A DNA stretch of 64,000 bases from Fimbriiglobus ruber. Its GTDB lineage: Bacteria; Planctomycetota; Planctomycetia; Gemmatales; Gemmataceae. Positions 3,603 to 53,900 of the stretch are shown here, piece after piece. The position numbers and the translations under genes were made by a program. Position 1 is the first letter of the stretch. The number at the start of each line of letters is the position of its first letter. The notes under the pieces were generated by a model, which ran no database searches, was not told the DNA's origin, and was given only the letters and a program-made list of their open reading frames with translations. The stretch covers positions 1,162,712-1,226,711 of the forward strand of contig NZ_NIDE01000017.1 of assembly GCF_002197845.1 (NCBI RefSeq), written 5' to 3'.

Positions 3603-3613
3603 GCATACATGCC

Positions 3614-3655
3614 AAAGCACCGCGACCCGAGCCAATGCTCGGGTCGCGGTGCTTT
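3614..3655. terminator. Strong bidirectional terminator
   Basis: A perfect 19-bp stem, 3614-3632 with 3637-3655, around the loop CAAT. The arms begin with AAA and end with TTT, so the hairpin can serve both the plus-strand gene ending at 3602 and the minus-strand operon ending at 3676. Confidence 0.9.
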
Positions 3656-3675
3656 GTATTATTCGGTGAGCGGTC

Positions 3676-4323
3676 CTAACGCGGGTTCGGCAACGTCGGG
3701 TCGCCGATCTGGGGTATGGCGGGGGTTCCGATCAGCGGAGCCCCGGGAGCGGCTGGCTCGGTCCCCTGGTTGGCGTTGGGCGTTTCGGTCACGGGTCGGG
3801 ACAGATTGAGCCCGGGCCGTCGGCCCCGCGCAGGGAGGGGGGCGTCGGGCGCCGCCGGGGTCACGGCGACAGGCGGAGTCGCTGCGACAGGCGGCACCTC
3901 AGCAGCGGGTGGAACCGCCGGCCGGACTGTCGCTGTCTCTGGGACCGGGATCACAAATGGGCGGGCGGGCACAGCCGGATCGCGGCGCATCATCCCGGGG
4001 GCTGGCGGTGCCGCCGGTGCTGCGGGGGGAGCCGCCGGTGCTGCGGGGGCAACGGCAGGGGCGGGTTCAACCGTGCCGCCACCACCAACTCCGCCGGGAG
4101 GCGGAGGCGTTTCATTCCGGGGTCCGGACGGGCGGGCGACCGCGGCCGGCAACTTGATGTCCGGCTGAGTCGATTTGGCTTCGGACACCCAGTCGTAATC
4201 GTTCGATTCCAGTGCGAGGAGGCCGATGCCCAGCAGCATGGCCACGCACGTCATCGCGAGCATGCCCACGTACACATCGTTCCGTGGCGGCGCGTCGACG
4301 TATCGTTCGCGTACCTTTCCCAT
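3676..4323 (-). CDS. Membrane-anchored Pro/Ala-rich protein, last gene of the five-gene membrane operon
   Basis: A 215-aa protein of unknown function. ATG 4323 is chosen because GAGGGG sits 7 bases upstream; a GTG two codons earlier overlaps that site less well. The N-terminus is short and polar (MGKVRERYVDAPPRNDVYVG), followed by one membrane helix (about VGMLAMTCVAMLLGIGLLAL). The remaining 170 residues are Pro/Ala/Val-rich and low complexity, probably an extended stalk across the periplasm or cell wall. The segment NDVYVGMLAMT just before the helix is matched in the next gene upstream (NDAYVGLLAIT), so the two are likely paralogous anchors. It is followed by the strong terminator at 3614-3655. 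Confidence 0.75.
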   Translation of the reverse strand: MGKVRERYVDAPPRNDVYVGMLAMTCVAMLLGIGLLALESNDYDWVSEAKSTQPDIKLPAAVARPSGPRNETPPPPGGVGGGGTVEPAPAVAPAAPAAPPAAPAAPPAPGMMRRDPAVPARPFVIPVPETATVRPAVPPAAEVPPVAATPPVAVTPAAPDAPLPARGRRPGLNLSRPVTETPNANQGTEPAAPGAPLIGTPAIPQIGDPTLPNPR

Positions 4324-4374
4324 ATCCACGCCCCTCAGATAAGACTCACGACGGCTTGTCCCGCTCGCACTTTT

Positions 4375-4728
4375 TCACGTCCCAGCTGCGACCGGAGCTG
4401 GTGCCGGCGGGGCAGCCGCGGGCGCCGCCGGGGTCGTGGACGTCGAGCCGCCCAGGCCCGGGACCGTAAAGCTCGGCGACTGTACCGGCGAGGCGGACAG
4501 CTCGGTGAAATCCAGGTAGAACATCACGCTCGCGGCAATCAGTGCGAGCAACGTGATCGCCAACAAGCCGACGTAGGCGTCGTTTCTGGATCCCTTCTTC
4601 GGCTCCGAATACCCGTCGTCGCCGTCGTCGTCGTCGTCCGCCTCATCGACGACTTCGTCTTCGTCCCGCGGGGCGGCTTTCTTCTTCTTTTTCTTCGGCT
4701 CGTCTTCGCTGCGTTTTTTTTTGGCCAT
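4375..4728 (-). CDS. Small membrane protein with Lys-rich and Asp-rich N-terminus
   Basis: A 117-aa protein of unknown function. It begins MAKKKRSEDEPKKKKKK, continues with an acidic run (DEADDDDDGDDG), then the NDAYVGLLAIT motif and a membrane helix (residues about 53-72, LLAITLLALIAASVMFYLDF), and ends with a Pro/Ala/Thr-rich tail. GAGGGGG before the ATG at 4728 supports the start. The charged N-terminus should be cytoplasmic and could bind nucleic acid or a partner protein. It shares its anchor motif with the downstream gene at 3676-4323 and lies 67 bases after the upstream coiled-coil gene, within one operon. Confidence 0.75.
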   Translation of the reverse strand: MAKKKRSEDEPKKKKKKAAPRDEDEVVDEADDDDDGDDGYSEPKKGSRNDAYVGLLAITLLALIAASVMFYLDFTELSASPVQSPSFTVPGLGGSTSTTPAAPAAAPPAPAPVAAGT

Positions 4729-4795
4729 GATCGGGTTCCCCCTCGCTAGGCGTGTCGGCGTCGTGGTCTCGGGTCGGGCAGTCGGCCGTCCGGGG

Positions 4796-5671
4796 TTACC
4801 GGCCCGCGACTGAGGGAACGATCTCGTCGCCCGGCTTCGGGTAGTCGTCCTCGCCTAGCCGCCCGCCGCGTGGAGCGTTGAACTGGCCGACGCCGGTCTT
4901 TGTGTCGACTTGCATGACAACAATCTTGCCGATGTATCGCGGCGTCGGGGTCAATCGCTGGACCGTCAGGACGGCACCCTTTTGCAGACCGGAGTCGATG
5001 CCCGGGGTGAAGGAGACGTAAGTTCCGTCGCGGGTGACGATCGTGCCCCGGAAGCCGGCCGGAGTGGGAACGGCCTTGTTCAGAACACCCGGCGGGGCCA
5101 CGCCGCCCTGGTACTGCCGCCGCTCTTCGAGTTGCTCGTTCAATTCGAGGATCTTGGTGTTCAGCTGTGCGACTTGCTGGGTCTTCGATTGGACTTCGAG
5201 CCGCGCCTTGTTCGCGTCCACCCGGTCCTGGTCCGCAGACAGCGTCTTGGCCGTCAGCTCGTCCTCGCGTTTCTTGAGTAAGTCGCTTTGGTCCTTGACC
5301 TGGGTCTGGAGGGCGTCTCGGTTGGCCTGGAGGGCCTTCTCGGCGACGGCCGTCTTCTGGACGACGGCGGTCAGGTCGCCGATCTGCTTTTGCAGGGCTT
5401 CCACCTCGGTCGACAGCCGTCGCTCGGACTCGTACCGGCGGGCGATTTCCGCGCTGAGCGAGCGGTTCGCGTCCTCGGACGCGGCGAGCTGGTCGGAGAG
5501 CAGCTTGTTTTGAGCGACCGCCGAGTCGGCGGCTTCCTTGTACTTGTCCTGGAACTTCTTGGCTTCCGCCTGCCAGTTGGTGCGTGTGACGAAGGCGTTC
5601 ACCACCAGTCCGGTCCACGCCAGACTGAGGACGAGTACCATGATCACCAACATCTTGCCCATTGCGGTCAT
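4796..5671 (-). CDS. Single-pass membrane coiled-coil protein (operon gene 3)
   Basis: A 291-aa protein of unknown function. ATG 5671 is chosen because GGGAGGG lies 8 bases upstream and because it leaves MTAMGKMLVIMVLVLSLAWT, matching the MGxxGKxL starts of the two genes upstream; a longer start at 5764 adds only low-complexity basic sequence. After the helix a heptad-rich coiled coil runs from about residue 30 to 190 (repeated KxxEL/Q patterns). It is followed by a compact C-terminal domain with beta character (GFRGTIVTRDGTYVSFTPG, GAVLTVQRLTPTPRYIGKIV) that resembles a small beta-barrel such as those in MreC-like proteins. MreC-like topology (helix, coiled coil, beta domain) suggests a structural envelope role; that is inference. 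Confidence 0.78.
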   Translation of the reverse strand: MTAMGKMLVIMVLVLSLAWTGLVVNAFVTRTNWQAEAKKFQDKYKEAADSAVAQNKLLSDQLAASEDANRSLSAEIARRYESERRLSTEVEALQKQIGDLTAVVQKTAVAEKALQANRDALQTQVKDQSDLLKKREDELTAKTLSADQDRVDANKARLEVQSKTQQVAQLNTKILELNEQLEERRQYQGGVAPPGVLNKAVPTPAGFRGTIVTRDGTYVSFTPGIDSGLQKGAVLTVQRLTPTPRYIGKIVVMQVDTKTGVGQFNAPRGGRLGEDDYPKPGDEIVPSVAGR

Positions 5672-5815
5672 CGAGTGAACCCTCCCCTGTGACCAGCGCG
5701 ACCTGATTTCCGATCCGCCGCTTCGCCCCCGCGGGCGGCGTCTATTCTCGATCCCCGAAGCCAACCTTCGGGTGTTTTATCCGCTTCCCGATCTGCGGTG
5801 CCGTTTCAGCCACCG

Positions 5816-6616
5816 TTATTTGAATTCCTGCAACCGTGCTTCCAGCTGGGCCTGACGCCGTTCGAGCGTCTGGAGCTGGACGACCCAGTTGACCTTGATC
5901 GATCCCAGGTACGCGGCTTCCTCGCGCAAGTTCGTGAGCGCGGTCTTCTGTCGCCCGATCAGGGCGTCATTCGCCGCGACTAGCTCGGACAGGTCCGAGT
6001 GGAGAATGCGAAGGTCTTCGACCCCGAGCCCGTTCAGGAGTTCGGTGTAATCGGCGTTGTTGCCGACGGTCTTCGAGAGGTCGCGCTTCTGGGCGTCCGT
6101 CAACTTCCGGGCCGGGTCGCCGAAGCGGAGGAGCCGGATCGTCGCGACCGTGTCCTGGAACTGCTTCCGGAGCGATTCGAGACCTTCGAGCGGCTTGTTG
6201 TTCGCGCCCAGGATCACCGCCCCGTCTTTACTGAGGTCGGTGAACGCGGCGTCCCCGGCCCCGCCGACGGCCGGGATCTGCACCCGGAACACGGCCTGAA
6301 TCCGCCGGCCGGCCCCGTCGGCCCCGCGGGCCTGGTACAGTCGATCATTGTACTTCGACCGCCGGAAGTCGCGGGTCAGCTCGAGATCAGATAGGCCGCG
6401 GAACTTGGCCCCGTACGCCGACTGCGAGCCGGCGATCGATTTGGAGAGGGAATCGATTTCCTTCTTGTAAATCGTGATCTGCCCTTCGACCGTCTCGTTT
6501 TCGTTCTTGCTATCGAGCAGGTCGACCCGGTTCGTGTAGGACGACACGCTCCAGGATAAGAGCGCGACCGCGACGAACACGTTGAGGAAGGTCAGCAGTT
6601 TGCCGAAGCCGGTCAT
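5816..6616 (-). CDS. Single-pass membrane coiled-coil protein (operon gene 2)
   Basis: A 266-aa protein of unknown function. It opens with MTGFGKLLTFLNVFVAVALL, a membrane anchor of the same MGxxGKxLxxxN style as the gene before it, then a periplasmic coiled-coil stretch (about residues 30-70), a central region of mixed character (YNDRLYQARGADGAGRRIQA and following), and a second coiled coil at the C-terminus (residues about 215-266, ending LERRQAQLEARLQEF). It lies 50 bases after the gene at 6667-8034 and is co-oriented, so the five genes probably form one transcript. No enzymatic motif was seen. Confidence 0.75.
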   Translation of the reverse strand: MTGFGKLLTFLNVFVAVALLSWSVSSYTNRVDLLDSKNENETVEGQITIYKKEIDSLSKSIAGSQSAYGAKFRGLSDLELTRDFRRSKYNDRLYQARGADGAGRRIQAVFRVQIPAVGGAGDAAFTDLSKDGAVILGANNKPLEGLESLRKQFQDTVATIRLLRFGDPARKLTDAQKRDLSKTVGNNADYTELLNGLGVEDLRILHSDLSELVAANDALIGRQKTALTNLREEAAYLGSIKVNWVVQLQTLERRQAQLEARLQEFK

Positions 6617-6666
6617 GGGTCGGTGTCCTCGGTCGTCCGATCGTGGGACGGAGCAACGGTCGGCAG

Positions 6667-8034
6667 TTATTTATCTTTAACCGGCGTATTAGTCGCCCGC
6701 GTCTTTTGTTCACTGTTCAACAGTTGTTGTTCCAGGTCGAAATTCTTTTGCAGCGTGTTGCCGACGGTCCGTTCGGTGTCGAGCAGGTCCTTTTCGACCT
6801 GGGCCTGCTTCTCCAACGAGGCGGCGACCTGGGCGCGGATCGCGGCCAGATCCTGCTGCCGTTCGACGAGTTGGGCGGCCCGTTGCTTGGCGGCTTCGGA
6901 GTCCCGGGCGCGCTGGGCTTCGTATTCGGCCTTGAGGGCGAGTTGCTGGTCGAGCAACAGGGAGTTCTGGACCGCGAGCCCCTTGAGAAGTTCGTACTCT
7001 TCGGAGAATCTGGCCTGGTCGCTCACGATCTGTTGGTTCACGCTCGCGGCCATTTCCCGCAGATGGTTCACCTGATCCGAGATCGCGGCCGAGTAGACCC
7101 GCAGGCCGGTCACGAGGGCGACCCGCTTCTGCCACTCGGCCGAATAGTCCAGGTGAACGAGCAGGTGGGCGATCCGCAACCGGCGGTCGGCGTCATCGCG
7201 GCACGCGGTCGAGCCGAGGTTGGTGAATTCGGCCTTGAGCTTCTGGCGGGCGGAGTCGGCCGCCGTCAAAGCGTCGTCCAAGACTTTGCGGGCGGCCTTG
7301 TAGCCTTCGTCCGCGTCCCGTTCTTCCACCGTCTTCCCGCGGAACGCGTCCTCGGCCTGGACCAACTTGGTGTTCGCCCCCCGGACGGCTTCGGCCGCCC
7401 GCGTGATCTCTTCGCCCGCCGTCTTGAGGCGGGTGGCTTCTTCGTCGGCCAGGCGTGGGTTCGGGGTGGCCTGTACCGTGGCGAATTTCTTTTTGAACAT
7501 GGCCACGGCCGTTTCCGCGTTCTCTTTCAACTTCGTCTGGTCCGCGGAAACCATCTTGCGGACGAAATCCCGCTCGTCGTACCGCTCCGCCAGGAGGATG
7601 AGCCAGCCGGGGGTGAAGACGTTCTGATTGAAGCTCCCGCAGAGTACCTGGATCTTCTGGGCGTCGCCGGCGTCGTTGAGCTGGGATTCGAGTTTTGTCC
7701 CGACCCGCTTGACCTCGTCGAGCTGGGTTCGTGGCGGCTTGGGGTCGCCAAGCTGGGTGCCGCCGTTCGTCCCCTTAAAGTGGTTCTCGAGGAACTTCGT
7801 GCTGACGGATTCGATGGGCACCCCGCCGGAGCCGGTCATGTTCAATGGCACGCTGTCCTTGTCGTCGTCGGCCCCGGTCGGAGCCTGGACGGGCATTCCG
7901 ACCAGGATCAGCAGGTAATCCGTGGCGACGGCGGAGATTTCCTGCCGCTTGGCCCAGTCCTGGGTGGCGAGGTAGGCCACCCCGGCCGCCGCCAGGAGGT
8001 TGATGAACAGCAGAACTTTCCCGAGCGTCCCCAT
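6667..8034 (-). CDS. Single-pass membrane coiled-coil protein (operon gene 1)
   Basis: A 455-aa protein of unknown function heading the minus-strand operon. The N-terminal MGTLGKVLLFINLLAAAGVA is an uncleaved anchor or signal-like helix. It is followed by a globular region (residues about 30-170, including WLILLAERYDERDFVRKMVS) and long coiled coils rich in Ala, Glu, Gln, Lys and Arg (residues about 170-450). The product is predicted to face the periplasm with a rod-like body. Together with the two following coiled-coil proteins it could form a hetero-oligomeric envelope filament or tether. No homologue of known function comes to mind. Confidence 0.77.
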   Translation of the reverse strand: MGTLGKVLLFINLLAAAGVAYLATQDWAKRQEISAVATDYLLILVGMPVQAPTGADDDKDSVPLNMTGSGGVPIESVSTKFLENHFKGTNGGTQLGDPKPPRTQLDEVKRVGTKLESQLNDAGDAQKIQVLCGSFNQNVFTPGWLILLAERYDERDFVRKMVSADQTKLKENAETAVAMFKKKFATVQATPNPRLADEEATRLKTAGEEITRAAEAVRGANTKLVQAEDAFRGKTVEERDADEGYKAARKVLDDALTAADSARQKLKAEFTNLGSTACRDDADRRLRIAHLLVHLDYSAEWQKRVALVTGLRVYSAAISDQVNHLREMAASVNQQIVSDQARFSEEYELLKGLAVQNSLLLDQQLALKAEYEAQRARDSEAAKQRAAQLVERQQDLAAIRAQVAASLEKQAQVEKDLLDTERTVGNTLQKNFDLEQQLLNSEQKTRATNTPVKDK

Positions 8035-8468
8035 AACTACCCGTTCCTACGCGCGTTGCGCCGTCCGGAGGGTGGTAGGCGTTCCGGCGGCGAGTGGCCG
8101 TCGCTACCCAACGATTGTTGCGTCTACCTGCGACCTTGACAAGCGATTTGACCGGGCAATGCGTGGGGTTTCGGCTATCCGCGTCGGCGCGACCGGTCCC
8201 GTCGGACTGACGGGTCCGGTCGGGTTTTCCGGCTGGGTCGACCCGGCGGGCCAAACCGCCCGTACAACCGGAACGGACGGCGCAGCCGGCACACTGCCTG
8301 GGCGAATCCGGCGCGCAAAGCCGGCGCGCGGATGTCCCCCATCCAAACACTAAACGGTTCCGCCAGAGGATTCGTTTGCGCGAAGCGGGTATCTTTCAAA
8401 TGAGATGATTAGTAGCATGAGACGATCGTAGGGTGGATCAGGCCAAACGATTGGAGCTTCCATCGGCC
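8035..8468. other. Divergent intergenic region between the membrane operon and the sigma-factor gene
   Basis: About 430 bases. It should carry the operon promoter (minus) and the sigma-gene promoter (plus). Around 8190-8260 there are short self-complementary GACCGG/CCGGTC stretches that can form hairpins. I see no convincing small gene; the open frames here have no start context and skewed composition. Confidence 0.4.
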
Positions 8469-9032
8469 ATGTTGACGACTTCACCCACGCTCCTCGACCG
8501 TCTCCGGCTACCGAACCAGCCCGAAGCCTGGGCTCGGTTCGTCCACCTTTACACCCCCCTCATGTTGACCTGGGCACAGCGGCAAGGTCTGCAAGAAGCG
8601 GACGCCGCCGACCTGGCCCAAGACGTTCTCATCAAACTGGTTCGCTTACTCCCGACCTACGAGAAAGGGAACGGCCAGTCCTTTCGCGGGTGGCTGAATC
8701 GCGTCACCGCCAACCAGTGCCGCGATTTCCGCCGCCGGCGAGCGACCCGAGCGCTACCGACCGCCGACGGATTGTCTGGCGCTGATGACGAGTCACCGGT
8801 CGCGGAGTTGGAGGAAGTCGAATACCGACAAGCGATTGTTCGGCGGGGCTTGGAGCTGATCCGGCCGGACTTCAGCGAGAAGACATGGAAGGCGTTCACC
8901 GGCTTGATGCTGGACGGCCGGACCGCCGCCGAGGTCGCGACTCAACTCGGAATGACCGAAAACGCCGTCTACATGGCGAGACACAAAGTCTTGACCCGAT
9001 TACGAGAGGAAATAGGGGGACTGATCGAGTAA
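8469..9032 (+). CDS. RNA polymerase ECF-family sigma factor
   Basis: A 187-aa sigma-70 factor of the extracytoplasmic-function type. The ATG at 8469 is preferred because planctomycete homologues begin with TSPTLLDRLRLP-like sequence; a GTG at 8433 would add 12 residues. Region 2 is visible in AWARFVHLYTPLMLTWAQRQ and DAADLAQDVLIKLVRLLPTY, followed by FRGWLNRVTANQCRDFRRRR. Region 4 (helix-turn-helix) is FTGLMLDGRTAAEVATQLGM and then ENAVYMARHKVLTRLREEI. It lies directly upstream of the calpain-like gene and a membrane kinase, all on the plus strand. In planctomycetes ECF factors are often encoded next to Hanks-type kinases, so control by phosphorylation is plausible but not shown. Confidence 0.92.
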   Translation: MLTTSPTLLDRLRLPNQPEAWARFVHLYTPLMLTWAQRQGLQEADAADLAQDVLIKLVRLLPTYEKGNGQSFRGWLNRVTANQCRDFRRRRATRALPTADGLSGADDESPVAELEEVEYRQAIVRRGLELIRPDFSEKTWKAFTGLMLDGRTAAEVATQLGMTENAVYMARHKVLTRLREEIGGLIE

Positions 9033-9155: not shown

Positions 9156-10742
9156 ATGTTCCGAATGCTTCAATGGCTCGGTAAAAAACGGCCCGCGGGA
9201 ACGACGAAGACGACCCGTCCGAGGACGGGCCTGCGGGTCGAGAGCCTGGAGGTCCGCGAAATGCTGTCGGTATCGCCTGCGGCGTCGGCCAACGTCTTCC
9301 TCCCCAATGACACCGCGATCCACACCATTCCAGGCAGCACCTCCAGCTACCGACTCACGACGCAGGGCTCGTTACAGTACGAAAACGGCACGGCCGGCTG
9401 GAATACGATCCAGAACGGTGTGAGTGCGTTTTCTCTGACGCCGCAAAGCAATTATGTGGACTATTTGACCACAAGTGGGAATCTGTACGAAGCGCCCGTC
9501 GGAACCTCAAACTCGATTTGGCTGGACAACACGGTCACGAAATTCGGGATCGCCGGGAACGGGCTCGTCGTGGAACTGGAAGCCAGCGGCCACCTGGAGG
9601 AGCAGATGGCGCCCGGGGCGGGCGCTCCGTTCGACGTCCTGGACACGACCGTCTCGTCGTTCGCCATCGCCGGGAACGGGCTCGTCGTGGAACTGGAAGC
9701 GGGCGGCAACTTGGAAGAACAGAACGCTCCCCTGTCGAACGCCGGGTGGGTCGCCTTGGATTCCGGGGTGTCGTCGTTCGCGATCGCCGGGAACGGACTC
9801 GTCGTCGACCTCGAAGCGGGCGGTAACCTGGAGGAACAGAACGCTCCCCTGTCGAACGCTGGGTGGGTTGCCCTGGACTCCGGGGTGTCGTCGTTCGCGA
9901 TCGCCGGGAATGGACTCGTCGTAGACCTTGAGGCGGGCGGCAACCTGGTGGAACAGAGCATCCCGCTGTCGAACACCGGGTGGGTCGTCCTGGACACCGG
10001 GGTGTCGTCGATCGCGATCGCCGGGAACGGGCTTGTCGTTGACCTCGAGGCGGGCGGCAACTTGGTGGAACAGAGCATCCCGCTGTCGAACACCGGGTGG
10101 GTCGTCCTGGACACCGGGGTGTCGTCGATCGCGATCGCCGGGAACGGGCTTGTCGTTGCTCTCGAGGCGGGCGGTAACCTGGTGGAACAGAGCGCTCCTC
10201 TGTCGAACACCGGGTGGGTCGTCCTGAATTCCGGGGTGTCGTCGTTCGCTGTGGCCACCGGGAACACCCTGTATGCACTCCAATCCGGCAACCTGTACCG
10301 GGTCGACGGAACGCTGACCGGACCCGGCCTTTGGACCGATCTGAACAGCGGGGTCCAGTCGTTCGCCATGGTCAGCCCGAACACCTTGTACGTCCTTCAG
10401 TCCGGCAACCTGTACCGTGCTGACGGGACGCTGTCCGGTCCCGGCCAGTGGACCAATCTGAACAGCGGGGTCCAGTCGTTCGCCATGGCCAGCCCGAACA
10501 CCTTGTACGTCCTATTATCCGGCAACCTGTACCGGGTCGCCGGGGCGCTCGCCGGACCGGGACAGTGGACCGATCTAAATGGTGGGATCCAGTCGTTTGC
10601 CATGGCCAGCCCAAGCATCTTGTACGCCCTCCAGTCCGGCAACCTGTACCGGGTCGCCGGGGCGCTCGCCGGACCGGGACAGTGGACCGATCTAAGAGCC
10701 TGTTTGGGAATCCTGGCTATCTACATCCGTCTGCACTCGTAG
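9156..10742 (+). pseudogene. 5' part of a secreted calpain-like protease gene, interrupted by an IS element
   Basis: Starts at ATG 9156 (AGAGG 8 bases upstream). The N-terminus has a basic stretch and the LEPR-XLL-like motif LRVESLEVREMLS, common on exported planctomycete proteins. From 9543 the product consists of 39-residue repeats: six of type A (FAIAGNGLVVELEAGGNLEE) followed by type B (FAMASPNTLYVLLSGNLYR). The size and pattern recall tectonin-like beta-propeller blades. The frame runs into the IS at 10696 and stops at 10742 after 15 IS-encoded residues. Removing the IS and one copy of the target duplication (999 bases) restores the frame exactly to the protease part at 11695-12980. The gene sits between the ECF sigma factor and the kinase. 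Confidence 0.85.
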
Positions 10743-11691
10743 TTTAGGTATTCTGGGCCGTCATTCGCCGTCTGTCGTTAGGCACACTTATTCAGGCGAC
10801 GAAGCATGAGTCGGATGCTGCTGACCTGGACCATGGCCTCGCTCGACGATTCGGTCCGCTCGTAATCCTTGCTATTCCGCCGACACCGTCCGATCCACGC
10901 GAACGTCCGCTCGACCACCCATCGGACCCGCAACGGCTGGAAGGTGGTCGCCCCCGGGGGCGGGACGAGATCTCCAACCGCACCCCCGGGCGGTGACCGG
11001 ACAACCACGCCTCGAACGCATGGTTGTGATACTTCTGGTCGGCGAACACCGCCCGGACCCGCGAATACACCCCGGGATCGAGTCGCCCGAGGACGGTCGC
11101 GGCGGCCGCTCCGTCGTCCACGTTGGCCGCCGTCACGACGACCACCAACAGCAACCCGAGCGTGTCCGTCAGGATGTGCCGCTTCCGCCCCTGGATCTTC
11201 TTTCCCCATCATATCCGGGGCTTTCCGTGCATTCCGTCCCCTTGACGGATTGGCTATCGATGCACGTCGCACTCGGGGTCGGGTCCGGCCGGCCTTCGGC
11301 TACCCGGACCTGGGCGGCCAACGCGGCATTCAGCCGGGTCCATGTCCCGTTCCGCTTCCACGTGGCGAAATACGCGTACACCGTCTGCCATGGGGTGCCC
11401 AAATCGTTCGGCAACATCCGCCACTGGCAACCGGTCCGATTGAGATACAGGATGCTGTTCAGGACGGATCGGAAGTTCACCGTTCGGGGAGCCCCGGCTC
11501 CCGTCGGGGGCGGGACGAACGGTTGTACGAGAGCCCATTCGGACTCGGTCAGGTCGGTCGGGTAACCCGTTCGCATGATCCCTCCGGGGAAAGCGGCCAT
11601 TGGGCTGACCGGCCTATACCCCCGAGTCGAGATCTTCTCCAGACCGACACCACCACCACCACCCAAATCCCATAGATTCCCAAACAGGCTC
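10696..11691. mobile_element. IS5-family insertion sequence, 996 bp
   Basis: The ends are inverted repeats GAGCCTGTTTGGGAATC (10696-10712) and its complement (11675-11691). The element is flanked by a 3-bp target duplication TAA (10693-10695 and 11692-11694). A TNA target and GAGCCTGTTTGG-type ends fit the IS1031-like group of IS5. The undisturbed site is preserved in the neighbouring repeat unit (GATCTAAATGG), which confirms both borders. It carries one minus-strand transposase gene broken into three frames. Confidence 0.93.
10778..11576 (-). pseudogene. IS5-family DDE transposase, broken by two frameshifts
   Basis: Starts at ATG 11576 (MRTGYPTDLTESEWALVQPF) and ends with a TAA at 10778-10780. 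The first catalytic Asp is in CIDSQSVKGTE, the second in VFADQKYHNHAF and the catalytic Glu in RVRWVVERTFAWIGR, so all DDE parts exist but lie in three frames. One missing base near 11201-11207 (run TTTCCCC) would restore GYDGGKKIQGRKRH; one missing base near 10951-10960 (C5G5) would restore RPPGATTFQPLR. With both added the protein is 266 aa, a normal length. Either the copy is dead or the sequence has two base deletions; a programmed shift is unlikely because no slippery heptamer is in frame. Confidence 0.85.
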
Positions 11692-11694
11692 TAA

Positions 11695-12980
11695 ATGGTG
11701 GGATCCAGTCGTTTGCCATGGCCAGCCCAAGCATCTTGTACGCCCTCCAGTCCGGCAACCTGTACCGGGTCGCCGGGGCGCTCGCCGGACCGGGGCAGTG
11801 GACCGATCTAAATGGAGGGATTCAGTCATTCGCCATGGCTAGCCCGAGTACTTTGTACGCCCTCCAGTCCGGAAACCTGTACCGGGTTGACGGGGCATTG
11901 GCCGGGCCCGGTCAGTGGACCGATCTGAACGGCGGGGTTCAGTCACTAAATGACGTCCCCGTTGCAAATGTGCCGTACATACCAGCAAACGGAATTCTAT
12001 TTGGTCCTGATGGTCCTTCCTACCTAGATGTTCAACAGGGCAACGAGAACGACTGCTGGCTGATCGCAAGTCTAGCTGAAGTAGCAGCCCGTGCGCCGCT
12101 GGAGATTGAGAAAATGTTCACTTACATCGGCACCGAGGAGGAAAATGGATCGGTCGTAGGACTGTACACTGTCCGTTTCTTCAACAACAGCGGTACGCCA
12201 GAATATGTCACTATTGACACGGAACTACCAGCTGGAGGATCCTATTACGATCGCCCCACCAACGGCGTCTTGTGGGTGGCCTTGGCCGAAAAAGCTTATG
12301 CTGCTGCAAATGCCGCAGGATTCGTGACAACCTGTTACAAGAATGTGAACTCCTACGATGCCCTCGGCAACCTGAATAACAGCGGCGGACTGTCGTCATG
12401 GGCCTTGCAAGCTATTACGGGGCAGACAATCGGTTCTACTACTAATCTCAACAACGTCGCTTCTGACTGGAACGCAGGATCACTGATTGTCCTGGGCACC
12501 AGCAAAAATAAGCCGACGGATTCTGATAAGGCTATCGAGGCGGATCATGCGTATGCGGTCGTTGGATATGATGAATCAAGCGGCATGTTTCTGATCATGA
12601 ATCCTTGGGGAACCGATTCTGCGGGATGGGCTCCTGGTCTAGACAACCAAGTTTATGGCCTATTCTCGACCAGTCAGGAGGTCTTATTGCAGAATTTTTC
12701 CGAGGAATTCAACGGAATAAGTACAGCTTCTGGGCTAGCGCAGGCATCCCTCAATCCCATCGGACTTACCGTGCAATGGTCTTACACTGCTAACCCACCA
12801 ACGGCGGGGGCAAACATGCAAGAAGAACCTGATTCGGTCAGCGAAAACAGAAGTTGTTTGGAATTCAATTCTCTCCAGACAAAAGGCATTGCTGAACCCA
12901 CTGAAGCGTCTTTTTCCATTGACAATCCTCAATCTGGCCTGTTGAAACGCTGGCACTTTGAAGTTGACTACGAAATGTAA
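11695..12980 (+). pseudogene. 3' part of the calpain-like (peptidase C2) protease gene
   Basis: Continues the reading frame of 9156-10695 after the IS. It holds the last repeats and then a papain-fold calpain domain. The active-site Cys is in QGNENDCWLIASLAEVAA (calpain QGxxxDCW signature), the His in EADHAYAVVGYDES and the Asn in MNPWGTDSAGW, so the triad is complete. Between them is WVALAEKAYAAAN, the calpain structural segment. About 120 further residues follow, ending at TAA 12978-12980. The fragment could be translated from ATG 11718, but it would lack the export signal, so it is probably not functional as it stands. Bacterial calpains of this type are thought to be secreted, calcium-independent proteases; the substrate is unknown. 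Confidence 0.85.
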
Positions 12981-44947: not shown

Positions 44948-47900
44948 TTATCCCACGAAGACGCCGCCGGTAAACCCGGGCAGCGCGTCGAAGTCGAACA
45001 GCGAGGTCGGGTCGGACGGGTTGGCCAGGATGCTCTGACCGGTGTACGCCGTCACCCGGCTACCGTCGCCCGCACCGGACCCGACCACCACGTCGGCGTC
45101 CGCGTCGCCGTCCAGGTTCTTGACCGCGACTCGCACCCCGCCCCGAGCACTCGCGTCGCCTGCGAAGAAGTCGGCGATCGTCGTCTGCGTGCCGTCGAGG
45201 AGGGCACTCCCGCTGAACACCGTCACCCGGGGGGCACCGCCGGGGCCGCCGCCAACGACGATGTCCGCCTTCCCGTCCCCGTTGACGTCGCCGACCGCCA
45301 CGTACGCCCCGTTCGTCAGCGACGGCTCGAACGCGAAGAAGTCCGCGAACAGTTTGACCGGAGATGCCGCACCGGACGCGACCGACTTGCCGTCGAACCC
45401 GGCGATCCGCGGTCCCCCCCCGAACCCGGCCGACACAACGATGTCGGCCACCCCGTCCCCGTTCACGTCGCCGACGGCCGCCCGGGCTCCACCCCGGAAA
45501 TTCGGATCCTGGATGCCGAAGAACCGGTCGATCTGGGCCGGTTGGCCGTTGGGTTGGCCGGACGCCAGTCCCTGGACGAGTTTGGCCCCGTCGTACACGG
45601 CCACGACCGGCCCGCCGGTCTGATCGGGGGTGACGACCAGGTCCGGGACGCCGTCGCCGGTGATGTCCCCGACGGCCACGAAGACGCCGCCGGTGAACGT
45701 CGCCTCGAACGGCTGGAAGGTGGTGATCACGGCCCCCGTCTTACCGTCCAGGATGACGACCTCGTTCGGCGTTCCCGGCCCGGACCCGACCACGATGTCC
45801 GCCACCCCGTCACCGTTGAAGTCGCCGGTCGCGACCCGGACGCCACCGGTGAACGAGGCGTCGAGGGCGAGCGTGGCCGCGAGTTGCGGCGACCCGTTGG
45901 CCCCGAACGATTCCACCACCGGCCCGCCGCCGGCGTCGGCCCCGACGGCGATCGTGCTGTTACCGAGCAAGAGGGTCGACGACTCCCCGCCAGCCGATGT
46001 CGACCCGGCCGTCGTCGATTGTGGGGCCGACGTCGACGCGGTCGTGTTCGCGTCCCCGTTGTACTGGGCGACGATCGTCTGGGCGGTCGCCGGGACGCCG
46101 GTCCAGTGGAAGGTCGCCACCCCGCCCGCGGTCGGGACCGTGGCGATCACGGCGCCGGTGATTTGGTCCGTGAACGTCACGGTCCCGGTCGGGGCTGCCG
46201 CGCCAGAAGTGGTGGTCGTCACAGTAGCCGTCAAGGTCACCGGCGACCCCGACGCCGCCGTGTCCGGGGCGATCGCCAGCACAGTCGCGGTGCCGGCGGC
46301 CGAGACCGTTTCGGCCGGCGCGAGCGTGCCAGAACTGGTCAGGTAACTGCCGGTCGCCTGGAAGGTCGCCGCGACCGTGTGCGACCCGACTGATAGACCG
46401 GGGACCGCGAGGGTTGCCGTCCTACCGTTCAGGGCGACGGGCGTCGGCGTGCCCCCGTCGATCGAGAACAAGACGGACCCGGTCGGGGTGCCGGCGGCCG
46501 CCGTCACGGTCGCGGTGAAAGTGGCCGACTGGCCGGCGGACACGGGGTCGGCGGCCGCCGTCACGGCCGTCGTCGTCGTGGTCGGCGTCACGGTGACCGA
46601 CACGTTTCCGCTGCTCGTGGCGAGCTGGAAACCGTTCGGCGTGAAGACCGCGCGGATCGAATGGGGGCCGCCGGTCAACTGGGTCGACGTGGGCGTCAGG
46701 GTCCAGACGGCGGTGTCCGCGGTCGTGTTCTGGAGTACCCCGGCACCGAGGTCGGTTTGCGTGGCGTCGTCGAAGAACTCCACCTGCCCGGTCGGAGCCT
46801 CGCCGCCCGCCTGCACGGTCGCCGTGAGCGTGACCGGCGAGCCGAACGCGACGGTCGGGGCGGAACTCGTCACGGTCGTCGTCGTGAACGTGGACGGCGT
46901 GATCGTCCCGTTCGGTTCGGGAACGAAAGTGAACGTGTAGTTGGCGCCGCCGTTCCCGTCGTCGACGGTGCCGGACGGCGTCATCTGCTTGCCCGTACCG
47001 ACGCCCGGGTTGTCGTAGACTTCGGTGAAGGCTGCCGTGTCGCCGGCCCCGAGGCTGCCGACCGTCGGTACCGCGGTCGACGTCGTCGTGCCGTCGTAGA
47101 CCTTGGTACTCGGCGCCGCCGTCACGATGACGGGCCGGGGCATGATGGAGGCGGTCGAGGACGGGAACGTCAGGGCGTAATCCCCGGCCTGGGCTCCCCC
47201 CAGGGCGAACCCGGCCGTCGTCACCGGAATCCCACTCCCGACGTTGCGGCCCGCGAACGTACCGATGGCATTGGTCGTGAGCAGGCTGACGCTGTCCCCG
47301 GGCAGTAGACCGACGACGGCGGCGGACGTCGTGTCCAATGTGTCGTTGGTCGTCCCGTCGTAGACCTTGTCGAGGGTTCGGACGCCGCTGATCGAAAGGG
47401 TCCGCGGCGTGATGTCGGCGGCCGTCGTCCCGGTAACAGTGTAATCCCCGGCCTGGGCACCCGAGAGAGACAAGCCGCCGACGGAAACGGGAATGTTGGC
47501 GCCCGCACTGGCGCTGGCAAACGTCCCGGTCGCCCCGCCCGTGTTCAGGGCAACAACGTCACCGCTGAGTACACCGACCAGGGTAGCTACCGCCGTGTTC
47601 AGGGTGGCGTTGGTGGTGCTGTCGTACACCTTGTCGGCCGCCGTTATACCGGCGACCGTCAGGGTGAACGGGGTGATGCTGGCGGTAGTGGTCGGCTGGG
47701 TCAGGGTGTAATCGCCCGCCTGGACCCCGGTCAGGGCAAACCCGGCGGTGGTGACGTTGATTCCGGCCCCCACGTCCTTCGAGACGAACGTGCCGGCCGC
47801 CCCACTCGCGTCGGTACTGACGGCGTCACCGCCGAGTACACCGACTAGCGTGGCCGCCGCGGTATTCAGGGTGGCGGTCGTGGTGGCGTCGTACACCTTG

Positions 47901-50900
47901 TTGTCCGCCGTCACCCCGGTCAACGTGACGGCACGCGGCGTGATGCTGGCGGTGGTGGTCGGCTGGGTCAGGGTGTAGTCATCCGCCTGGGTCCCGGTCA
48001 GGGTGAACCCGGCGGTGGTAACAGTGATCCCGATCCCCACGTCCTTCGAGACGAACGTACCCGTGGTGCCAGCGGTACTCAGGCCGACGGTGTCGCCGCT
48101 GAACACGCCAACGAGGATGGCCGTCCCGGTGTTCAGAGTGGCCGCCGTCGTGCTGTCGTACACCTTGGTGTCGGCCGTCACGCCACTGACGGCGAGGGTG
48201 GCCGGGGTGATGCTGGCGGTAGTGGTCGGCTGGGTCAGGGTGTAGTCACCCGCCTGGGCCCCGGTCAGGGCGAACCCGGCGGTGGTAACGGTGATCCCGG
48301 TCCCCACGTCCTTTTGCGCGAACGCGCCGGTGGCCGCGGCCACGTTCAGGCCGACGGTGTCCCCGGCGAACACGCCGACCAGCGTGGCCGTCCCGGTGTT
48401 CAGGGTGGTGTTGGTAGTGCTGTCGTATACCTTGTTGCCGGCCGTCACGCCACTGACGATCAGTGTGGCCGGGGTGATGTTCGCGGCGATCGTCGGCTGA
48501 GTCAGCGTATAATCGCCGGCTTGAGCCCCGGTCAGGGCGAACCCGGCGGTGGTAACGGCGATCCCGGTGTCGACGTTCTTCGAGGCGAACGTGCCGGTGG
48601 CCGCGGCCACGTTCAGGCCGACGGTGTCGCCACCAAACACCCCGACCAGGGTGGCCGTCCCGGTGTTCAGGGTGGCGTTGGTGGTGCTGTCGTACACTTT
48701 AGTGTTGGCCGCCACGCCACTGACGGTGAGGGTGAACGGGGTAATGTTCGCGGTGGTCGTCGGCTGGGCCAGGGTGTAGTCACTCGCCTGAGCCCCGGTG
48801 AGGGCGAACCCGGCCGTGGTGACGGTCATCCCAGTCCCCACGTCCTTGTGCGCGAACGCTCCGGTTACCCCGCTCGTGCCGAGACTCACGGTGTCTCCGC
48901 TGAACACCCCGACCAGGGTCGCCGACCCGGTATTCAGGTCCGCGGTCGTCGTGCTGTCGTACACCTTGTCGCTCGCCGTCACGCCCGAGATCGTCAGTCC
49001 GAACGGGGTGATGCTGGCCGTGGTGGTCGGTTGGGTCAGGGTGTAGTCGCCCGCTTGAGCTCCGGTGAGGGCGAACCCGGCCGTGGTGACGGTGATCCCG
49101 GTCCCCACGGCCTTGTCCGCGAACGTGCCGGTGACTCCGGCGCTGTTCAGGCCGACTGTGTCGCCGCTGAACACGCCGACCAGGGCCGCCGACCCAGTAT
49201 TCAGGTCTGCGGTCGTCGTGCTGTCGTACACCTTGTCGCTCGCCGTCATGCCCGAGATCGTCAGCCCGAACGGGGTGATGCTGGCCGTGGTCGTCGGTTG
49301 GGTCAGGGTGTAGTCGCCCGCTTGAGCCCCGGTGAGGGTAAACCCGGCGGTGGTGACGGTGATCCCGATCACCACGTCCTTTTGCGCGAACGTGCCGTCG
49401 GCCGCGGTCACGTTCAGACCGACGGTGTCGCCACCAAACACCCCGACCAGGGTAGCCGCCGCGGTGTTCAGGACGGCAGCCGTGGTGCTGTCGTACACCT
49501 TGGTGTTGGCCGTCACGCCCGAGATCGTCAGCCCGAACGGGGTGATACTGGCCGTGGTGGTCGGTTGGGCCAGGGTGTAGTCGTCCGCCTGGGCCCCGGT
49601 CAGGGCGAAACCGGCAGTGGTAACGATGAGCCCGATCCCCACGTCCTTTTGCGCGAACGTGCCGGCGGCCCCCGCCACGTTCAGGCCGACGGTGTCGCCA
49701 CCAAACACCCCGACCAGGATAGCCGCCGCGGTGTTCAGGACGGCAGCCGTGGTGCTGTCGTACACCTTGGTGTTGGCCGTCACTCCGGAGACGGTGAGGG
49801 TGAACGGGGTGATGTTCGCGGTGGTGGTCGGCTGGGTCAGCGTGTAGTCGCTCGCCTGGGCTCCGGTGAGGGCGAACCCGGCAGTAGTGACGGTGATCCC
49901 GGCGTCGACGTCCTTCGAAGCGAACGTGCCGGTAGCTCCGGCGCTGTTCAGGCTGACAATGTCCCCGGCGAACACGCCGACCAGGGCGGCCGCCGCGGTG
50001 TTCAGGGTGGCCGCCGTCGTACTGTCGTACACCTTATTGTTGGCCGTCACGCCGCTGACGGTGAGGGTGAACGGGGTGATGCTGGCGGTGGTCGTCGGCT
50101 GGGTCAGGGTGTAGTCACTCGCCTGAGCCCCGGTGAGGGTGAACCCGGCGGTGGTGACGGTGAGCCCGATCCCCACGTCCTTGTTCGCGAACGTGCCGAT
50201 GGCCCCGGCGCTGTTCACGCCGACGGTGTCGCCGGTGAACACCCCGACTAGCGTGGCGAGCCCGGTGTTCAGGGTGGCGGTCGTGGTGCTATCGTACACC
50301 TTGCCGTTCGCGATCACGCCGGCAACTGTCAGTGTGAACGGTGTGATGCTGGCGGTGGTGGTCGGCTGGGTCAGGGTGTAGTCGCCGGCCTGGGCCCCGG
50401 TGAGAGCAAACCCGGCGGTGGTGATGGTGATCCCGGTCCCCACGTCCTTGTTCGCGAACGTGCCGGTGGCCGCGGCCACGTTCAGGCCGACGGTGTCGCC
50501 ACCAAACACCCCGACCAGGGTGGCGGCCGCGGTGTTCAGGGTGGCGGCCGTCGTGCTGTCGTACACCTTGGTGTCGCCCGCCACACCCACCACCGTAATG
50601 CCGAGCGGCGTAATATTGGCGGTGGCGGTCGGCTGCGTTAGGGTGTAGTCGCTTGCTTGAGCCCCGCTGAGGGTGAACCCGGCGGTGCTGACAGTAATCC
50701 CGATCCCCACGTCCTTCATCGCGAACGTGCCGGTCGCCCCGCTTGTGACCAGAGTCACGGCGTCCCCACTGAACACCCCGACCAGGGTGGCCGTCGCGGT
50801 GTTCAGGGTGGCCGTCGTCGTGCTGTCGTACACCTTGTTATTCGCCGTCACGCCGGAAACGGTGATGGTCAACGGGGTGATGGTGCCGACGGTCGTCGGC

Positions 50901-53900
50901 TGGACGAGGGTGTAATCGCTTGCGTTCGTCCCGCTCAGGGTGAATCCGGTGGTGGCGACGGCGATCCCAGGGCTCGCATCCTTCGAGCCAAATGTCCCGG
51001 CCGCGCCGGTCGCGACCAGAGTCACGGCGTCCCCACTGAACACACCGCTCAAGCTGGCCGCCGCGGTGTTTAGGGTGGCGGCCGTGGTATCGTCGTACAC
51101 CTTGGTGTTGGCGGTTACGCCGGCGACAGTGAGGGTGGCTGGGGTGATGGTGCCGGCAGTCGTCGTCTGAATCAAGGTGTAGTCACCGGCCTGGGCTCCG
51201 GTGAGGGCGAACCCGGTCGTCGTAACGACAATCCCGGCGCCCACGTCCTTGCTCACGAAACTGCCCGTCGCCCCACTCGGGTCGAGGTTCACGGTATCCC
51301 CGGCGAAGACGCCGTTCAGCATCGCCGCGGCGGAGTTTAGCGTCGCCGCTGTCGTTTGGTCGTACACCTTGGTGTTCGCGGCAACGCCATTAAGCGTCAG
51401 GGTGAACGGCGCGATCGTTTCGCCGATCGGCAGACTACCCTGGCTGGACGTGAACTGACCGGCCGGCGAGAAGACCGCGCGGATCGCGTGGTTCGGGGCC
51501 GGGATCACACCCAGTTGCGTCTGGCCGGTGGTGAACGTCCACGTCGCCGAAGAGCTGTCCTGACTTTGCAGGGTGCCGACGCCCAGCAGCGTCCCGGTGG
51601 TGTCGTCGTAGAACATCACTCCGCCCGTCGGCGTTCCGCTCGTCGCGGTGACGGTCGCGGTCAGGGTAACGGTCGTCCCGTACGTCACCGTCTGTTGGGA
51701 GGTGCTGACGGCGGTCGTCGTGGTGATGGAGGTGGTAATCGACCCCGTGGGCACCGGAACAAACGTGTAGCTGTAGTCGGCACCGCCGACGCCGTCCTCC
51801 ACCGTTCCGGATGGCGTCAGGGTCTTGCCGGTTCCAATGCTCGGGGTGTCGTAAGTCTCGATGAAGTTGGCCGTGTCGCCGCCCAGAACGGCGCCCGAGG
51901 TGACTTGCGGAACCGCGGCGGCCGAGGTCGTGCCGTCGTAAATCTTCGTGTTGGCGACGGCCGTAATCGTCAGGGCGAGAGGAGTGACGTTGGCGGTCGG
52001 GGTCGGTTGGGTCAGGGTGTAGTCGCCCGCCTGAGCCCCGCCGATGGCGAACCCAGTCGTCGTGACCGCGAGTCCGGAACCAACGTCTTTGGCCGCGAAC
52101 GTCCCGGTCGCACCACTGGCATCGAGGGTCACTACGTCTCCGCTGAACACACCGACCAATGCCGCCGAGCTGGCGTTCAAGGTGGCGTCCGTCGCTGCGT
52201 CGTACACCTTGTCGTTGGCCGTCACGCCGGAGACGGTGAGGGTGGCCGGGGTGATGCTGGCGGTGGTCGTCGGTTGGGTCAGCGTGTAGTCACTGGCTTG
52301 GGCTCCCGTGAGGGCCAATCCGGCCACATTGACGACGATCCCGGAAGCGACATCTTTGCTCGCGAACGTCCCGATCACACTACTTGCGTCCGGGGCCACG
52401 GTGTCCCCTGCAAAGACACCATTCAGTGTCAACGACCCGGTATTCAGGGTGGCGGTCGTCGTGCTGTCATACACCTTATCGTTCGCCGTCACACCGGAAA
52501 TCGTCAGCGCAAATGGAGTGATGCTGGCGGTGGCCGTCGGCTGGGTCACGGTGTAGTCGCCGGCCTGGGCCCCGCCGAGGGTGAACCCGGCGGTGGTGAC
52601 GGTGAGCCCGGTCCCCACGTCCTTCTGCGCGAATGTTCCGGACGCGCTGCCCGAATTCAAGGTGACGGTATCCCCGCTGAACACCCCGACGAGGGCCGCC
52701 GAGCTGGTGTTCAGGGTGGCGGCCGTTGTGCTGTCGTACACCTTGTTGTTGGCGGTTACGCCGGAGACAGTGAGGGTGAACGGGGTGATATTGGCGGTGG
52801 CCGTCGGCTGGGTCACGGTGTAGTCGCCGGCCTGGGCCCCGCCGAGGGTGAACCCGGCCGTGGTGACGATGATCCCGGTCCCCACGTCCTTGCCCGCGAA
52901 CGTCCCGGTCGCCCCGCTCGTGCCGAGAGTCACGGTGTCCCCGCTGAACACCCCGGTCAGGGTCGCCGACCCGGTGTTCAGGGTGGCGTTGGTGGTGCTG
53001 TCGTACACCTTGTCGCTCGCCGTCACGCCCGAGATCGTCAGCCCGAACGGGGTGATGTCGGCGGTGGTCGTCGGTTGGGTCAACGTGTAGTCGCCCGCTT
53101 GAGCCCCGCCGAGGGTGAACCCGGCGGCGGTGACGGTCAACCCGGTGCCCACGTCCTTGCCCGCGAACGTCCCGGTCGCCCCGCTCGTGCCAAGAGTCAC
53201 GGTGTCCCCGCTGAACACGCCGACCAGAGCGGCCGAGCTGGTGTTCAGGGTGGCGTTGGCGGTGCCGTCGTACACCTTGTTATTCGCGGTTACGCCCGAG
53301 ATCGTCAGCGTGAAGGGCGTAATCGTCTCCGAGACATCGCCGGCTCCGGAACTCGAACTGGTGGCAAAGCCGGTCCCCGGGGTATATGTCGCGGAGATGT
53401 CGTGGGCGGCTCCCCCGTTGACTTGCAGTTGCGTGGCCGATGTGGTGAACGTGAAAGTCGTCACGTTGCCATTTGTGCTGGCAATCGTGCTCGTAGTTCC
53501 CAGGGATACCCCGTTATCGAAGAACTGAACGCTGCCCGCCGTCGGGGCGGTCGACCCGCTGGTCGCGGTCACGGTCGCCGTGAAGGTGATTTGCGTGCCG
53601 TACACTTCCGGCGAGGCGAGACTAGTGGTGACCGCCGTGGTCGTCGTCGTCGTCCCCGTGGTGCTGAGAACGGTCGCCACGATGTCGTTCCCGTCGCCGC
53701 CCGCATAGTTGATGGTGAAGATGTACTGGGAGTTGTTCGCCGCGGTGATCGTGGCTCCACCAGCGAACTGCCCCACGACCGCGTCCGTGCCATCGTTGTT
53801 GACGATCAGGAACTGGTCCCCGACGTTGGGACTGCCGAGGACGTTCAAATTCAGGGTCGACCCGGTGACGTCGACGGTCCCGCTGGCGTTCAGCTCGTCG

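Follow-up and report, generated by a model that had tools for sequence, protein, structure and literature searches.

A membrane-anchored rod-and-barrel protein of the Planctomycetota, linked to the mre locus, as a candidate envelope-spanning scaffold

Planctomycetes divide without FtsZ. How they keep their shape and divide in this way, with mreB, pbp2 and rodA dispensable in Planctopirus limnophila, is an open question that the protein described here may address. In P. limnophila, mreB, mreC and mreD are reported to lie in one unit (PMC6952346, accessible part), and an excerpt of PMC10632474 reports that ftsI, ftsW and mreB are non-essential there, that pbp2 and rodA can be deleted, and that the rodA and pbp2 mutants grow like the wild type. 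Here we analyse a 64,000-nucleotide stretch of Fimbriiglobus ruber DNA (NZ_NIDE01000017.1, positions 1,162,712 to 1,226,711; hereafter the window), in which a reading of the sequence alone had pointed to an operon of membrane-anchored proteins. Five co-directional minus-strand frames, A to E, are indeed present at 3676-8034, where that reading placed them, and a 20-bp stem closes the unit. Our main subject is the third protein, C, whose nearest described counterparts are MreC, the FlgT and F1-ATPase barrels, the periplasmic adaptors of tripartite pumps, spacers of conserved length, and FtsL/DivIC.

At E<=1e-3, 279 of 294 phylum genomes have a match to the C profile (150 of the 155 good genomes), and 254 of them at E<=1e-8 by hand count, with the top rows listed being mostly full-length; the 25 weaker matches may be due to coiled-coil chance. 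All 75 loci from a search requiring the conserved anchor motif carry record titles that we read as Planctomycetota; this does not prove that other phyla lack C, and the profile searches were confined to this phylum. Outside the window's order, Gemmatales, mreB is commonly found just downstream of C, in the frequent gene order moeA - lnt - C - D - mreB - mreC - mreD - PBP2-like, where moeA and the PBP2-like gene were named by eye. At one such locus (L186) Pfam confirmed LNT_N, MreB_Mbl (2e-141) and MreC (1.2e-17), with MreD just below its cut-off (22 vs 24 bits). The matches listed comprise 146 genomes for C and 150 for MreB; of the 77 genomes outside the window's order with both positions among them, 69 carry C within 1.5 kb of mreB, and in the other eight the two genes are on different contigs of draft genomes. 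The mreC and mreD genes seen here conflict with the available text of PMC5147048, according to which MreD occurs in no proteome of the Planctomycetes-Verrucomicrobia-Chlamydiae (PVC) group and MreC is absent from budding planctomycetes. The literature that we covered, as titles and abstract openings, makes no mention of the C protein or of its linkage to mreB.

Counted by locus, mreB follows C within 4 kb in 20 of 33 phylum loci, 6 of 73 genome-contig loci and none of 39 Gemmataceae loci, and lnt precedes C within the same distance in 15, 14 and none of these, respectively. At least 14 of the genome-contig loci coincide with other loci, so that the sets are not independent, and L061-L100 were selected for a match to C (L078 for one to B). 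Furthermore, genes of the relatives were called with a simple codon-model caller that misses or mis-strands some of them (in L066 and L067 this concerns A and B, in L260 an intact C), which affects the neighbour counts in loci and leaves C-mreB distances and A-B-C order counts unaffected. In one Pirellulales-type group (f3), MreB is present, yet does not adjoin C in the loci read. As separate observations, C is duplicated in tandem at L166:4469-6175 and L182:4805-6650, the former pair being followed by a D-like gene and mreB, and several Gemmataceae loci (e.g. L073, L091, L099) have, downstream of C, a gene with the motif MSGGVDSSVA, presumably of the tRNA thiolation type.

Because the window's order lacks mreB, none of this linkage is visible from the window itself. 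Among 102 genomes of the order, none has an MreB match at E<=1e-30 (best 5e-22), where the matches counted as MreB elsewhere range from 9e-37 to 1e-144, and none has MreC above the cut-off. MreB candidates that do pass the Pfam cut-off in 86 of the 102 were rejected: their frames are mostly ~550-700 aa (some shorter), and we read them as Hsp70-type. The order thus keeps C without convincing mreB or mreC, usually together with A and B. The same was found in 13 genomes picked for a C without adjacent mreB, which include Singulisphaera acidiphila and Tautonia sociabilis: none has a convincing MreB (best 1e-18), while each of the three mreB-bearing genomes used for comparison reaches 1e-117 or stronger. 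In 12 of the 13, lnt was called upstream of C, and in S. acidiphila both lnt and moeA were confirmed beside it; the Tautonia locus has an intact C, and no lnt was found there. With C present and MreB not found in these genomes, these lineages at least have C in the absence of mreB. We infer the direction and the number of the mreB losses.

The model of C (AlphaFold2, 63 sequences; mean pLDDT 88.4, pTM 0.41) consists of one helix over residues 3-188 (186 residues) and six strands between residues 209 and 286. Together with hydropathy, it gives C an N-terminal membrane helix, a coiled coil and a C-terminal beta domain, in agreement with the MreC-like order proposed from the sequence alone, and outside the window's order C is moreover commonly encoded in the mre locus, which is not so within it. 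The identification of C as MreC was nevertheless rejected, as the same locus encodes a separate MreC (seen in L186 and L168). In addition, the C of the window has no match to PF04085 at E<=0.1, this family is not among the 25 (of 30) listed for 31 C members, C is present where MreB was not found, and the helix of MreC is shorter than the single rod helix of the C model. What remains is a weak local likeness: in profile-profile comparison (hhalign) the C barrel aligns with the first beta region of planctomycetal MreC (90.5% over 43 columns in A4, 74.8% over 30 columns in A1), the anchors staying unaligned, and with filters off the MreC profile scores C proteins over the coil and the start of the barrel (best E 1.8e-8). 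FtsL and DivIC resemble this group in their short N-tail, membrane helix and coiled coil, but the matches are all below threshold (B to TIGR02209, E 0.099, 12.6 vs 42.45 bits; one of 31 C members to DivIC, E 0.004). Searched against PDB sequences, C recovers mostly generic coiled coils (myosin, tropomyosin, lamin) among the best 60 of 322 matches.

The barrel is predicted to adopt the six-strand fold of FlgT_C and of the F1 N-terminal domain. VIA-align superposes it on the N-terminal barrels of F1-ATPase alpha and beta with Z 9.3-10.0 over 66-77 residues, and F1-type ATPase chains lead the Foldseek search (best E 5e-4, the only row under E 0.001; FlgT 3w1e at rank 20, E 7e-3). Compared with a viral structure library, the C model gave no match at E<=0.001, the top row being a phage protein annotated as FlgT_C. 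By sequence, in contrast to this predicted likeness, only 2 of 31 C members reach PF16538 (FlgT_C), weakly and under the cut-off (best E 3e-4), while one C paralogue comes to 26.8 bits where the cut-off is 27; no flagellar or ATPase context was seen around C. The excerpted text of PMC4446572 describes FlgT-C, the F1 beta N-domain and the barrels of periplasmic adaptors as having the same topology, and these adaptors likewise combine such a barrel with a helical arm. However, the C model has neither a helical hairpin nor a lipoyl domain, just its one helix and one barrel, and no transporter gene was seen next to C in the loci listed.

Pairwise identity averaged over 122 C proteins is 0.40 in the anchor, 0.15 in the rod and 0.35 in the barrel. 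The distance from anchor to barrel is nonetheless held at 173 aa (interquartile range 170-176, range 161-208, coefficient of variation (CV) 0.049), a constancy equal to that of the barrel itself; for whole-protein length, A has a CV of 0.18 and B one of 0.063. Spacers in which length is conserved and sequence drifts have been described (PMC5082667, in part), and the C rod, sequence-divergent and length-constant, behaves likewise when set beside the tethers Lpp and Deinococcus SlpA, as far as the accessible parts of PMC5082667, PMC8824477 and PMC9388160 go. C differs from these in being anchored via a membrane helix and in carrying a barrel head, and the likeness is one of resemblance, not of sequence relation.

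As to the side of the membrane on which rod and barrel lie, Gemmataceae carry short anchorless paralogues of C (coil plus barrel, or barrel alone; L264, L265, L266, L267, L269, L271 and L071:5762-6370, the last directly downstream of C) with export-like N-termini. Of nine readable short paralogues, five of them from genus g28, seven show an Ala-type site, signal peptides being judged by eye. Furthermore, two proteins with sigma-70 regions 2 and 4 end in a C-type barrel (L272:222-1865, in the window's genome on contig C11, and L276:279-2333), and the second has a membrane helix between the sigma-70 domains and the barrel. On the basis of these paralogues and fusions we read the barrel as lying outside the cytoplasm, and the rod and barrel of C would then both be periplasmic.

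Of the 102 genomes in the window's order, 98 have C (threshold 1e-3), 85 have B and 78 have A (1e-12 for both). Taking adjacency as same strand with a gap of at most 1.5 kb, and counting from the matches listed (95 of the 98 C genomes), A and B are adjacent in 75 of the 78 genomes that have both, B and C in 72 of 85, and A-B-C are contiguous in 68 of the 78 with all three. A gene order confined to very close relatives would have spoken against the operon as first read; instead, A-B-C contiguity extends through the order and C through the phylum. A fixed five-gene system of the whole phylum, however, does not emerge. C, often with a D-like gene, appears to be the old core, and A, B and E occur in some lineages only. 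In genome G071, moreover, a single contig carries A-B with the divergent kinase (L078) ~1.5 Mb away from C-D (L079), which shows contiguity to be common but dispensable.

That the five proteins share anchors, as the sequence-only reading had it, is borne out, by two different anchors. With hhalign, A, B and C align over their first 36-40 columns only (C-B 98.6%, E 8e-16; C-A 96.0%, 4e-9; B-A 93.3%, 3e-7), whereas planctomycetal MreC, which also has a membrane helix and a coiled coil and served as a control, fails to align with the C anchor. Judged by these profiles, the N-terminal anchors of A, B and C are homologous. D and E have a different anchor in common, in which a Tyr motif, NDAY for example, immediately precedes the helix, as indicated by the motif and by cross-matches. 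D-like small proteins are found directly downstream of C elsewhere in the phylum: among 145 labelled loci, 35 have a downstream short gene with the motif and one helix, and 75 any short same-strand gene; the sets of loci overlap here, and short genes escape the caller. Records of Schlesneria show a B-like anchor paralogue upstream of C, with mreB downstream in some (L241, L242, L243) and not in others; this B-like family aligns with B (97.8%) and with C (98.9%), coils included. Matches of the B profile outside the order were not counted as proof of B, since most of them land on C through the shared anchor.

So what could C do? An envelope-spanning scaffold, which the first reading had suggested for the whole set, is still the interpretation that fits best, and for C it would be one ancestrally linked to the mre locus. 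More precisely, and at about even confidence, we favour C as an inner-membrane-anchored spacer of the planctomycetal envelope that once worked with MreBCD, was kept without it, and was enlarged in the window's order. The short N-tail and the membrane helix would fix C in the inner membrane, the continuous ~24-nm helical rod would span the periplasm, and the barrel at its distal end could bind a partner or assemble with other barrels, so that C would set or bridge the distance between the inner membrane and the outer envelope. Ancestrally, C and its small neighbour D may have worked with the adjacent wall machinery of MreB, MreC and MreD; as lineages without MreB and MreC keep C, its job would be independent of MreB. 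In the window's order the set would have expanded by the anchor-sharing A and B and by a second D-type protein, E, and this enlarged set, usually beside a divergent membrane Ser/Thr kinase, plausibly forms a hetero-oligomeric envelope scaffold. A phylum-wide protein without a Pfam or NCBIfam model, adjacent to mreB in many genomes and kept without it in others, offers a concrete single-gene candidate for the element that keeps the planctomycetal envelope together.

Several points weigh against the spacer reading. Two family-level groups (f46 with 15 genomes and f77 with 4, possibly, as a guess of ours, the anammox lineage) have a weak or empty C result in spite of mostly near-complete genomes; as MreB is present in all 19, C is not required wherever MreB is. 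The constancy of the rod could be explained by common descent alone, B being nearly as constant (CV 0.063). Structural scores of Z 9-10 are modestly above the 7-8 that the tool typically gives without a clear match. The charges flanking the membrane helix are ambiguous, with a mean net charge of +1.9 on the N-side and +1.2 on the C-side and with 1.9 vs 3.6 positive residues. As mreB, pbp2 and rodA are dispensable in P. limnophila, linkage to the mre locus is no proof of importance; an envelope element linked to, yet independent of, such genes is of interest, with the caution that members of this locus may be non-essential. Finally, the localisation, the partner and the phenotype of C are all things we infer.

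A bolder form of the spacer reading we regard as rather doubtful: C would be an ancestral load-bearing or spacing element, retained where MreB, MreC and conventional wall genes were lost, and Gemmatales would have built A, B, D and E onto it, giving a periplasmic scaffold that does not depend on the wall, fixes the width of the envelope and supports budding division free of FtsZ and MreB.

Among the alternatives, C might belong to the MreBCD/PBP2 wall-synthesis complex as an accessory subunit, acting as another MreC-like scaffold and, in MreB-less lineages, serving residual wall synthesis. This would account for the direct linkage to mreB, for the MreC-like layout of the model and for the local barrel-MreC profile similarity. 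We nevertheless consider it unlikely, given that C is present where MreB and MreC were not found and absent from the two MreB-bearing groups f46 and f77. Decidedly unlikely, in our view, is a bridge from inner to outer membrane or a transport adaptor in lipoprotein or outer-membrane traffic. Such a function is suggested by the persistence of lnt upstream of C where mreB was not found, e.g. in S. acidiphila (L213), and by the barrel topology which, through FlgT, is common to periplasmic adaptors (PMC4446572, in part); it fits poorly with one continuous helix lacking hairpin and lipoyl domain, with loci listed in which no transporter or outer-membrane channel gene was seen kept near C, and with the lack of lnt linkage in all 39 Gemmataceae loci.

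It is very improbable that A-E of the window's order mainly form a signalling complex, in which the rods would act outside the cytoplasm as sensors or as substrates of the membrane Ser/Thr kinase encoded alongside. Where the gene preceding A could be read (28 loci), it is a divergent kinase with a C-terminal membrane helix in 24, the kinase domain being confirmed in all three loci scanned (L072, L075, L099), but the window has a sigma factor gene at that place, none of the 33 phylum loci outside the family showed the kinase next to C, and A-C would expose only ~6 cytoplasmic residues if N-in. Hardly more can be said for rods that point into the cytoplasm and form, next to MreB, a cytoskeletal coiled coil held at the membrane, for while the N-tail is very short and positive residues average 3.6 after the helix vs 1.9 before it, the net charge leans slightly N-in, and the export-like anchorless paralogues, the protein with the order sigma - membrane helix - barrel and the FlgT-type barrel all speak against it.

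As for the gene set itself, shuffling the region 200 times gave a longest open reading frame with a median of 277 aa and a 95% point of 453 aa, so that frame length alone is uninformative here and the evidence for genes is conservation. A-D have a G+C content at third codon positions (GC3) of 0.80-0.86 in the coding frame; E is not set apart by it (0.73 vs 0.77 in the next frame) and was missed by the gene caller, and homologues of E were found in relatives (L061 8e-11, L062 1e-17). The gaps between the genes, from A to E, are 50, 144, 67 and 45 bp. Searched against Pfam and NCBIfam, no product of A-E exceeds any curated cut-off and no enzymatic domain was found, as had been expected from the sequence. 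A single membrane helix is predicted for each protein (A 4-22, B 2-20, C 7-25, D 52-70, E ~19-40), though not always near the N-terminus as first described, that of D lying mid-protein behind a charged low-complexity head. Likewise, of the large proteins described as coiled coils, A is helical throughout in a model of medium confidence (mean pLDDT 72.5), not one coiled coil, and this model has no match among PDB structures at E<=0.001. The coordinates of the features are collected in Table 1.

Table 1. Coordinates of the A-E unit and its parts within the window
Feature	Position	Strand	Description
Gene A	6667-8034	-	455 aa; anchor common to A-C, helical body with a long helix at the C-terminus (model residues 311-448)
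Gene B	5816-6616	-	266 aa; same anchor as A and C
Gene C	4796-5671	-	291 aa, ATG at 5671; anchor, rod, linker, barrel; phylum-wide core protein
C residues 1-30	5582-5671	-	short N-tail and membrane anchor, motif M-[TSN]-x-x-G-K
C residues 31-188	5108-5581	-	rod; single continuous helix in the model, ~24 nm at 0.15 nm/residue
C residues 205-289	4805-5059	-	six-strand barrel of F1-ATPase N-terminal / FlgT C-terminal type (predicted)
Gene D	4375-4728	-	117 aa; charged head, NDAY motif immediately preceding one membrane helix, Ala/Pro tail
Gene E	3676-4329	-	217 aa, GTG start; D-type anchor (RNDVY), long Pro/Ala-rich tail
Likely terminator of the unit	3613-3656	.	20-bp stem, 4-base loop, 19 bases past the E stop; scored on the + strand
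Promoter-like site upstream of A	8114-8142	-	9/12 matches, weak

Upstream of the unit lies a divergent sigma-70-family gene at 8433-9032 (Pfam Sigma70_r2). Elsewhere in the window, an apparent insertion element at 10695-11692, with transposase-like frames and imperfect inverted ends (18/22), sits within a repeat-containing gene whose repeats are found on both flanks (9156-10742 and 11718-12980). The genome measures 12.36 Mb, and the minus strand of the window also holds a single open frame of 3906 aa at 44948-56668, by appearance a giant surface-type protein.

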